Below are positions 59,269 to 62,268 of a DNA stretch of 64,000 nt, one piece after another (the stretch's first letter is position 1; each line of letters opens with the position of its first letter). Position numbers and translations under genes: made by a program. The notes beneath the pieces were generated by a model. It worked only from the letters and a program-made list of their open reading frames with translations. It did not search any database and was not told the origin of the DNA. The DNA lies in contig DASYSS010000037.1 of NCBI GenBank assembly GCA_036003045.1, positions 1-64,000 of the forward strand, in the 5' to 3' direction. Source of the DNA: Gemmatimonadaceae bacterium (lineage in GTDB: Bacteria; Gemmatimonadota; Gemmatimonadetes; Gemmatimonadales; Gemmatimonadaceae).

Positions 59269-60416
59269 CCCGCGGAGACGCGGTCGCGCTGACGCGAGAA
59301 CTCGTGCGCGTGGACTCGAGGAATCCGTCGCTCGTCGCCGGGGGACCGGGCGAGAATGCGGTGGCGAAAGCGCTGGCGACGGTGCTGCAAGACTGGGGGA
59401 TGCGCGTCGACTTGCAGCACGCCGCTCCGCAGCGGCCGAACGTCATCGCGCGCGCCGGAAAATCCGGCGGGCGAACGCTGATGTTCAACGGACACCTCGA
59501 CGTCGTCGGCGTGGAAGGAATGTCCCACGCGCCATGGGATGCGTTTCAGCGCGAGGGACGCATCTATGGACGCGGATCCGCGGACATGAAGGCCGGCGTC
59601 GCCGCCATGTGCGCGGCGGCCGCGCGCGCCGCGGACGAGCTCGAGGGACAAGTCGTGATCACCGCGGTCGTCGACGAAGAATTCGAGAGCATCGGCACGC
59701 GCGCGCTCGTCGCGGCGGGGGTTCGCGCCGACGCCGCGGTCGTCACCGAGCCGACCGGGCTCGCCGTCATGCCGGCGCACCTGGGGTTCGTGTGGGCCGA
59801 CGTGACGGTGTTCGGCCGCGCCGCGCACGGGAGCCGTTGGGAGCTCGGCGTCGACGCGATTCGTCACGCGGGCTTCTTCCTCACCGAGCTCGATCGCATC
59901 GACGCGGAGGAGTTGACCCAGAAGGCGCACCCGCTGCTCGGACGTCCGTCGGTGCACGCGTCGCTGATCGAAGGTGGAACCGGGATGTCCACCTACCCCG
60001 ATCGGTGCACGATCCGCATCGAGCGCCGTACGATTCCCGGCGAGAGGCCGGCGGACGTAGAGCGCGAGCTGCGCGAAGCGTGCGCGCGAGTCGTCGAGTA
60101 CCGGCCCGGTTTCCAAGCCGGCGTTCGCGTCACGTTTTCGCAGGAGCCGTCGGACGTAGCGGTCGAGGCGCCGATCGTGCGCGCGCTTTCACAAGCCATT
60201 TGCGACGACGACGACGAGCCGCGCATCGCCGGAATGTCGGCGTGGACCGATGCCGCGATCCTCAACGCCGCCGGCATTCCCGCGATCTGCTTCGGTCCGG
60301 GCGACATCGCGCTGGCGCATTCGGCGGAGGAGTACGTTCCGATCTTCGAGATCGAGCGCGCGACGACGATTCTCGCGTCGCTCGCCAAACGGTGGTGCTC
60401 GGCACGTATCTCGTGA
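59259..60416 (+). CDS. M20-family metallo-deacylase (ArgE/DapE/ACY1-like)
   Basis: The 385-residue enzyme has all M20 zinc ligands: FNGHLDVV, GRGSADMKAG, DEEFES (catalytic Glu and ligand), TEPTG and the C-terminal ALAHSAEEYV. A dimerisation domain (about 170-290, starting GRAAHGSRWELG) is inserted in the middle. It hydrolyses an N-acyl amino acid, small peptide or similar amide. TTG 59259 has AGGGA seven bases before and overlaps the kinase gene. The pairing with a sugar kinase suggests an amino sugar or acylated sugar substrate, but this is inference. Confidence 0.88.
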   Translation: MSIARGDAVALTRELVRVDSRNPSLVAGGPGENAVAKALATVLQDWGMRVDLQHAAPQRPNVIARAGKSGGRTLMFNGHLDVVGVEGMSHAPWDAFQREGRIYGRGSADMKAGVAAMCAAAARAADELEGQVVITAVVDEEFESIGTRALVAAGVRADAAVVTEPTGLAVMPAHLGFVWADVTVFGRAAHGSRWELGVDAIRHAGFFLTELDRIDAEELTQKAHPLLGRPSVHASLIEGGTGMSTYPDRCTIRIERRTIPGERPADVERELREACARVVEYRPGFQAGVRVTFSQEPSDVAVEAPIVRALSQAICDDDDEPRIAGMSAWTDAAILNAAGIPAICFGPGDIALAHSAEEYVPIFEIERATTILASLAKRWCSARIS

Positions 60417-60634
60417 CTCAGCTGACCCACCGCGAGTACGACACGCTCGAGCGGGCAGTGTCGCGAGGGACGCGCGTCGCGATCAGCCGACCCGGCCGGC
60501 GCGAGATCGTGCTGGTCCCGCTTTCGCTTTCGGTGAATGACGGCCGAGAGGTCATCAAAGCTCGCAACCCCACCACCGGCGACGAGCTGACCATCTACCT
60601 GGACGAAGTGGAACGAATCGAGGCAGTTACGTGA
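60413..60634 (+). CDS. 73-residue protein coupled to the M20 deacylase
   Basis: Starts at GTG 60413 within the stop of the deacylase gene (GTGA), so the two are translationally coupled. It has no Cys, TM or signal peptide. The fold looks beta-rich, with REYDTLERAVSRGTRVAISR and GREIVLVPLSLSVNDGRE-type strand/turn patterns (Arg rather than Gly at the first position). The ribosome-coupled start and even charge pattern support a real gene. Function unknown; a small binding or regulatory partner is possible. Confidence 0.6.
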   Translation: MTQLTHREYDTLERAVSRGTRVAISRPGRREIVLVPLSLSVNDGREVIKARNPTTGDELTIYLDEVERIEAVT

Positions 60635-60668: not shown

Positions 60669-61235
60669 ATGACCCACGACGGGTCCGGAAGCCCGCTACG
60701 GCCGATCGCCATCTTCGCGGACGAATCGTGCCTGGGAAACGGCCGCGAAGGGAGTAACCCGGGCGGGGCGGCGGGCGTCATCGAGTATGTGAGCCCCTCG
60801 GGGCGGCTCTCGCGCCACGACTACTGGGTGTCGGAGCCGGCCACCACGAACAACCGAATGGCGCTGCGCAGTGCGACCGAGGCGCTGCGCGGCATTTCTC
60901 GGAAGGGCGTGCGGTTCCGCGTCTCGTTCACGAGCGACTCACAGTACTTGGTGAAAGGGATGAGCGAGTGGGTTCGCGGCTGGGAAGCGCGCGGGTGGCG
61001 GAAGAAGGACGGGCCGATCCTCAACCTGGAGTTGTGGCAGGAGCTCGTCGAGGAGGCGCGCCGGCATCAGGTGTCGTGGCATTGGGTGCGCGGCCACGAG
61101 GGACACCCGCAGAACGAGTACGCGAACGATCTCGCCGTACGCGCCGCCAAGGAACAGTCATCGTCGAAGGGCATCGTCGATTCGCATTTCGATGAATGGC
61201 TGGCGGCAGAACGCGAAAAGGGACGGGTCAAATGA
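60669..61235 (+). CDS. RNase H-fold protein with substituted catalytic residues
   Basis: The 188-residue protein follows RNase HI: Asp18 (FADESCLGN), Asp90 (TSDSQYLVKG), TTNNRMAL, WVRGHEGHPQNEYANDLA. The second catalytic acid (Glu48 of E. coli) is Ala65 in TTNNRMAL, and the fourth (Asp134) aligns with Asn153 followed by Asp154 in NEYANDLA. Residues 23-33 form a longer loop than usual after the first strand. Hydrolysis of RNA in RNA-DNA hybrids is therefore doubtful; binding or altered chemistry is possible. ATG 60669 is 35 bases after the 73-residue gene and its stop overlaps the next gene (ATGA). Confidence 0.82.
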   Translation: MTHDGSGSPLRPIAIFADESCLGNGREGSNPGGAAGVIEYVSPSGRLSRHDYWVSEPATTNNRMALRSATEALRGISRKGVRFRVSFTSDSQYLVKGMSEWVRGWEARGWRKKDGPILNLELWQELVEEARRHQVSWHWVRGHEGHPQNEYANDLAVRAAKEQSSSKGIVDSHFDEWLAAEREKGRVK

Positions 61236-61414
61236 AGAAAGCAATCGTGGCGTTGATCGTCGGGCTCGCGATGGGGTATCACTGGGGGTACGGTGAAGGG
61301 AGCGACGGCAAGCCCTCGGTCGCGCTTCGCGTACTCGATAAATTCGGTGCGACCAATCTGAAGAACGCGCAGGCCGCGCAGGACAAACGCATCGAAGACG
61401 CCAGCAAGCCGTAA
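61232..61414 (+). CDS. 60-residue exported or membrane-anchored protein
   Basis: A short protein: N-terminal hydrophobic segment (residues about 4-15, AIVALIVGLAMG), then GYHWGYGEG and a charged helix (NLKNAQAAQDKRIEDASK). Overlap of ATG with the RNase H stop (ATGA) supports translation. Either a signal anchor with a periplasmic tail or a small cleaved peptide. Unknown function. Confidence 0.6.
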   Translation: MKKAIVALIVGLAMGYHWGYGEGSDGKPSVALRVLDKFGATNLKNAQAAQDKRIEDASKP

Positions 61415-61443: not shown

Positions 61444-62268
61444 ATGGACAACCTCGATCGGATGTACCGACATCTGGTGAGGGTCATTCGTTCGCGGTTC
61501 CCACAACATCTCGCCCAACCGTTTTCCGTCGCCGATCTCAATCAGACGATCCTTCCGTATCGTCTGCACCGTCGCGAGCTCGGCCTCGAGACGAACGACG
61601 ACTATGAGATCACGCTCACGGAGCTCGTCTCGGGTTCGCGCGACTACCTGATCGTCGACGACAGGCTGCGCGACACACTGGGCGCGGCGCTGGCGAATGT
61701 GAATCCGGATCCGTCGGCGTTCAAACAGTTCGCGCAGGCGATGGTCGCCCTCTCGCCGAGCGCGCTGCGCAGTCTCGACATCGGGCTGGATGAAAGCGCG
61801 AACCCTGCGCCGGCCAACGGACCGGCTCCGCCTTCGTCGACTCCGCCTCCGCCCCCGCCCCCGCCCTCTGCTCAGCCCCCGCGAGCCGCGGCGCCGGCTG
61901 AACGACCGAAACAGAGGCCTGCCGCACCGCCCGCGGCGCCGCCTGCCCCGCCGCCAGCTCCGCCGGCGGCAGCCGCTGCTTCACCGCCCGCCTCCCGCGC
62001 GCCGGCAGTTACGCCAAAGGCGACGCCGGCATCGATGCCCACGCCCACAACGACAACAAAAACGAGCGGCGGGGTAAGAGTCGTTGTTCCCCAGGCGGGC
62101 GATCGGTGTCGTTCATGCAGTGAACCGCTGCCGACCGGTCGTCCTATTACGTTCTGTCCACACTGCGGCCAGAACGTCACGACCTTGAACTGCCCGGCGT
62201 GCGGCGCGGAGCTGGAGCTAGGATGGAAGTTTTGTCCTTCATGCGGACGGCCCGCCGCGGCGAAGTAG
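61444..62268 (+). CDS. Helical protein with Pro-rich linker and two C-terminal zinc ribbons
   Basis: 274 residues. The first 115 are a helical domain (MDNLDRMYRHLVRVIRSRF, LTELVSGSRDYLIVDD) of no recognised family. A Pro/Ala-rich linker with an 8-Pro run spans about 120-215. The C-terminus holds a double zinc ribbon: CRSCSEPL...FCPHCGQN and CPACGAEL...FCPSCGRP. Such ribbons mediate protein or nucleic-acid contacts; a similar single ribbon heads the Ser/Thr kinase at 36.3-37.2 kb. It precedes a lipoprotein-like gene, which starts 29 bases later. Confidence 0.75.
   Translation: MDNLDRMYRHLVRVIRSRFPQHLAQPFSVADLNQTILPYRLHRRELGLETNDDYEITLTELVSGSRDYLIVDDRLRDTLGAALANVNPDPSAFKQFAQAMVALSPSALRSLDIGLDESANPAPANGPAPPSSTPPPPPPPPSAQPPRAAAPAERPKQRPAAPPAAPPAPPPAPPAAAAASPPASRAPAVTPKATPASMPTPTTTTKTSGGVRVVVPQAGDRCRSCSEPLPTGRPITFCPHCGQNVTTLNCPACGAELELGWKFCPSCGRPAAAK

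Follow-up and report, generated by a model that had tools for sequence, protein, structure and literature searches.

Genetic context of rnhA

The window, meaning the whole 64,000-nucleotide stretch of Gemmatimonadaceae bacterium DNA analysed here (contig DASYSS010000037.1), was found to carry an rnhA gene close to its end, in a run of genes on the same strand. The rnhA gene follows genes for an M20 peptidase and a mini-protein, and precedes a short membrane-type ORF and a gene for a zinc-ribbon protein. The features of the region and the codons discussed below are listed in Table 1.

Table 1. Features in and around rnhA in the 64,000-nucleotide window
Feature	Coordinates	Strand	Basis or remark
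Mini-protein, 73 residues, predicted WYL-like/Sm-like small barrel	60413–60634	+	GTG start overlaps the M20 stop; a neighbour, not part of the enzyme
rnhA, LC9-type (DEDN) RNase H1, 188 aa	60669–61235	+	ATG start; PF00075; 4ibn match
Asp18 codon (first acid) and Glu19 codon (putative relocated second acid)	60720–60725	+	Sequence; 124/124; predicted strand 1 (residues 11–21)
Ala65 codon (GCG), E. coli Glu48 position, helix A	60861–60863	+	E. coli alignment; 124-sequence alignment
Asp90 codon, E. coli Asp70 counterpart	60936–60938	+	Alignment
His143 codon, E. coli His124 counterpart	61095–61097	+	Alignment
Asn153 codon (AAC), E. coli Asp134 position	61125–61127	+	Asn in 112/124, Asp in 12/124
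Membrane-type ORF, 60 aa, lineage-specific neighbour	61232–61414	+	4-base overlap with the rnhA stop
Zinc-ribbon protein, conserved downstream neighbour	61444–62268	+	76/80 loci

In 80 named loci, genes on the strand of rnhA were found to encode an M20 peptidase in 68, the mini-protein in 77 and the zinc-ribbon protein in 76, these counts being lower bounds as contig ends truncate some of the loci. The mini-protein had no match above the cut-off in Pfam, and a weak WYL match was seen in one of 44 members. An AlphaFold model of the mini-protein (pLDDT 95.2) gave its best fold matches to the WYL-domain proteins CapW, BrxR and PafBC, the best having an E-value of 5e-4 and being the only match below 0.001, and weaker matches to Hfq/Sm barrels. 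In seven other families (two of the same order and five more of the class), a mini-protein gene with the orientation of rnhA was found in 4 of 30 loci, which extend only ~1500 bases upstream, and two of these four were 768 and 783 bases away. A mini-WYL protein as a universal partner of rnhA was thus ruled out.

The overlap with a membrane-type gene, described in the preliminary description as an odd partnership for an RNase H, is real and consists of 4 bases (ATGA, 61232–61235). However, the 60-residue ORF was found in 14 of the 80 loci, on the strand of rnhA, a count that is likewise a lower bound, and it is therefore not a conserved partner. In those 14 loci there is no overlap, and the ORF starts 24–45 bases past the rnhA stop. 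The protein encoded at 60669–61235 has 11 residues beyond the conserved Trp177, whereas most relatives have 27–44 residues there, the Trp having been located by a simple pattern that gave no or an unusable value for 11 of the 80 rows. The tail of most relatives (about EP..FP.GR.F) is missing from this copy of rnhA (61200–61235), so the overlap looks like the local loss of a C-terminal tail, which could affect stability or binding.

Active-site residues and closest structure

The product of rnhA matched PF00075 (RNase_H) with 104.9 bits (E 5e-30) and shares 38% identity over 152 columns with E. coli RNase HI in a pairwise alignment for which the reference sequence was entered by hand. In this alignment D10, E48, D70, H124 and D134 of the E. 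coli enzyme are paired with D18, A65, D90, H143 and N153, respectively. The fold, the counterparts of Asp10, Asp70 and His124 and the TTNNRM motif are common to the two proteins, whereas the rnhA product lacks both the helix A Glu and the fourth acid of the canonical DEDD set. Ala at the Glu48 site, Asn at the Asp134 site and retention of the other two acids and of TTNNRM had all been recognised from the sequence, and each is borne out by the alignment. The preliminary description overlooked Glu19 (codon GAA, 60723–60725), which directly follows the first catalytic Asp, D18, at the column of E. coli Gly11. Against the NCBIfam equivalog model for canonical RNase HI (NF001236), the protein scored 135.8 bits, below the 160-bit cut-off.

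Among 47 PDB sequences, the best match was 4ibn_A (234 bits, E 1e-68), and the runner-up was an E. coli RNase HI E48A/D134N mutant (113 bits). With the family profile, 4ibn scored 292 bits and the next entry 127 bits. An AlphaFold model of the rnhA product, made with 35 sequences (pLDDT 91.2), placed D18 and E19 in strand 1 (residues 11–21) and A65 in the first helix (residues 61–77). This model also had 4ibn as its first-ranked match in Foldseek (57% identity, TM-score 0.89, rmsd 2.2) and in VIA-align, where the Z-score was 25.6 with an rmsd of 2.1 over 182 residues and the next entry had a Z-score of 20.9. In the sequence alignment the residues ADES, TTNNRMA, DS and NEYAN are common to the rnhA product and 4ibn. 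The two proteins are alike in the Asp-Glu pair after the start of strand 1, in Ala for Glu48 and in Asn for Asp134, and 4ibn, the structure of LC9-RNase H1, has a tree position within the Gemmatimonadota sequences. However, the 4ibn chain, at 220 residues, has a longer C-terminus than the protein studied here.

In LC9-RNase H1, the glutamate is reportedly shifted from helix A to strand 1 beside the first Asp, comparable to the arrangement in RNase H2, and the properties of the enzyme are said to resemble those of an ordinary RNase H1. To our knowledge, the atypical motif is known so far from one metagenome-derived structure. The 4ibn record is entitled 'Crystal structure of LC9-RNase H1, a type 1 RNase H with the type 2 active-site motif', and the title of the corresponding paper (Nguyen et al., FEBS Lett 2013; cited in PMC4423430) includes the words 'atypical DEDN active site motif'.

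The resemblance to RNase HII/H2 lies in a neighbouring Asp-Glu pair that provides the first and second acids, as described for RNase H2 in PMC3025331 and as seen in the RNase HII of the same genome, which has this pair in its motif AGVDEVGRG. However, the rnhA product is not close to RNase HII in sequence, having no match to PF01351 up to E 0.1, and its solved neighbours are type 1 enzymes.

A search for a second rnhA or rnhB, which had been suggested as a check, identified this one RNase HII and no second RNase HI in the genome. The gene at 60669–61235 was the single PF00075 match and there was no match to PF13456, so that a second RNase HI covering for rnhA is not indicated, although this absence is not absolute as the genome is in 106 contigs and 98.5% complete.

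Conservation and distribution in the Gemmatimonadota

A total of 184 loci were read, and no match was present in L002 (an RNase HII), L150 or L152 (an RNase H of another type). After sequences shorter than 150 aa or contained in others had been dropped, the set used for the alignment and tree comprised 133 sequences, namely 124 with Glu19 (the protein encoded at 60669–61235 and LC9 counted in), 8 canonical sequences and a single fragment, L146, in which the first two sites are missing. All 124 of these distinct full-length sequences have Asp18, Glu19, Ala65, Asp90 and His143, and at position 153 there are 112 with Asn and 12 with Asp. Inspection of homologues at the two variant positions had also been proposed, and Glu was retained at the Glu48 site in 0 of the 124 and Asp at the Asp134 site in 12, so that the departure from the canonical residues is complete at the first position and holds at the second in all except these 12. 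Asp154 does adjoin Asn153, as had been pointed out, but is not conserved, and it was ruled out as a substitute for Asp134 because Asp is found there in just 38 of the 124 sequences.

On the tree, changes between Asn and Asp at position 153 numbered ~10, compared with a mean of 11.6 for shuffled labels, indicating that the two states are hardly clustered; as this is a quick FastTree tree of a short protein, the exact count is soft. In fragments among the 184 loci, the readable sites fit the same pattern, and the sole departures were the canonical sequences in L137–L139. In these three loci (L137, L138 and L139, from genomes G257, G297 and G319), the only PF00075 match is a canonical DEDD RNase HI that bears a Cys-rich extension at its N-terminus, and the Asp-Glu type was not found there. 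The other RNase H type in L150 and L152, loci from one genome each and from families further away within the class, has the motif RTNNQAEYEAL and lies near two ORFs that were named by eye as recJ-like and as coiled-coil/zinc-ribbon.

A match to the family was found in 140 of 148 genomes of the own family and in 367 of 395 genomes of a phylum sample, assigned to the Gemmatimonadota by the titles of relatives, the site residues having been read in the retrieved loci and not in all 367 matching genomes. Among the phylum rows listed, nearly all genomes had a single match and seven (G348, G162, G174, G219, G238, G326 and G312) had two, several of these involving fragments at contig ends. The best 80 of 300 relatives were titled Gemmatimonadetes, Gemmatimonadota, a lower rank (Gemmatimonadales, Gemmatimonadaceae or Gemmatimonas) or simply 'bacterium'.

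Glu39 (60783–60785) and Arg49 (60813–60815) of the rnhA product are also present in all 124 sequences with Glu19, whereas Arg and Glu occupy these positions in E. coli RNase HI and in two phage outgroups, and the exchange may possibly represent a swapped salt bridge.

Mobile elements and viral contigs

No relative of the rnhA product was found in viral contigs, and matches in 770 plasmid records and 1396 phage records were all below 60% identity. Four mobile outgroups that were read (from a Thermus phage, an unnamed phage, a Vibrio phage and a Klebsiella plasmid) have the canonical pattern. A search with the TTNNRMA pattern identified 31 viral contigs, and the Asp-Glu type was absent from those of their ORFs that matched the family profile or carried the motif in an open frame. 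Seven of the viral contigs (L186, L193, L199, L200, L202, L208 and L209) encode an RNase H-like domain with TTNNRMA which, judged by eye, has no counterparts of Asp70 and Asp134 and has Glu for Asp10. In L208, this domain comes after a phrog_1017 domain. These seven domains are better candidates for non-catalytic RNase H proteins than the rnhA product is.

Interpretation of the active site

Given the match to 4ibn and the conservation of the sites, the gene at 60669–61235 most likely encodes an active RNase H1 of the LC9 (DEDN) kind, in which the catalytic Glu would have been relocated from helix A to strand 1 and not lost. The protein very probably has RNase H activity; from 4ibn and RNase H2 we infer both this activity and the role of Glu19 as a metal ligand. 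In the proposed arrangement, metal ion B would be held by Asp18, Glu19 and Asp90, with Glu19 on strand 1 taking over the role that Glu48 in helix A has in the E. coli enzyme, comparable to Glu19 of Thermotoga maritima RNase H2. Metal A would lie at Asp18 and at Asn153, a residue that is Asp in some relatives, and His143 would be the usual auxiliary histidine. In T. maritima RNase H2, as described in PMC3025331, Glu19 beside Asp18 binds metal B and is placed like the second carboxylate of type 1 enzymes, though it comes from a different part of the fold. The combination of a fixed shifted Glu and a loose fourth position is in accord with the account in PMC4032109 that replacement of D134 in the E. 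coli enzyme by N or H reduces activity but does not abolish it.

An enzyme that is active but has a strongly different use of metals, preferring Mn2+ or effectively relying on one tightly held metal because its fourth carboxylate is Asn, would be compatible with the relocation of Glu19, and the repeated switching between Asn and Asp at position 153 is consistent with it, as is the statement in PMC4032109 that E48 and D134 of E. coli RNase HI are both dispensable for Mn2+-dependent activity. However, the invariance of Glu19 points to a normal metal B, and such a difference in metal use is considered unlikely. LC9-RNase H1, too, reportedly resembles an ordinary RNase H1 in its properties.

Of the two possibilities raised in the preliminary description, a shifted metal site is therefore supported by Glu19, which follows the first Asp as in 4ibn and RNase H2, whereas a hybrid-binding protein without nuclease activity does not hold up. 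The latter supposes that the losses at Glu48 and Asp134 ended catalysis while binding was retained, and two canonical acids are indeed missing. However, none of the 124 sequences departs from Asp18, Glu19, Asp90 or His143, binding alone would give no reason to expect an additional Glu next to Asp18, the genome search turned up no RNase HI gene other than rnhA, and 4ibn, the nearest solved relative, bears a title that calls it an RNase H with a type 2 motif. A dead enzyme was rejected on the conservation and the 4ibn match, and this possibility is very improbable. Sequencing or assembly errors in a canonical RNase HI can be dismissed with near certainty, as can chance, because the same pattern is fixed across relatives, every one of 30 aligned family members having these residues and all 124 sequences agreeing at five of the six sites.

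The relocated Glu is a real finding that is largely accounted for by the published work on LC9 (DEDN). No paper on the Asn/Asp variation or on the spread across the phylum was found in a search that covered the literature without most subscription journals. Modest additions to published work are that the shifted Glu is fixed phylum-wide, that Asn and Asp alternate repeatedly at the fourth position and that a WYL-like mini-protein is encoded next to rnhA, on its upstream side, in the own family.

Tentatively, and with considerable doubt, it can be suggested that the move of the second acid to strand 1 freed the fourth position, so that in this phylum the metal A ligand switches back and forth between Asn and Asp while the shifted Glu is fixed, perhaps with altered use of metals, and that the WYL-like mini-protein may be a working partner of the enzyme in the own family. 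If the fourth position was freed in this way, the lineage would be a natural experiment on the carboxylates that an RNase H requires. The natural Asn/Asp pairs at that position provide material for probing the role of this ligand. Across the sampled genomes of one phylum, the atypical motif is the rule, and a catalytic residue that is absent from an alignment can be relocated, which matters when enzymes are called 'dead' from their sequence.
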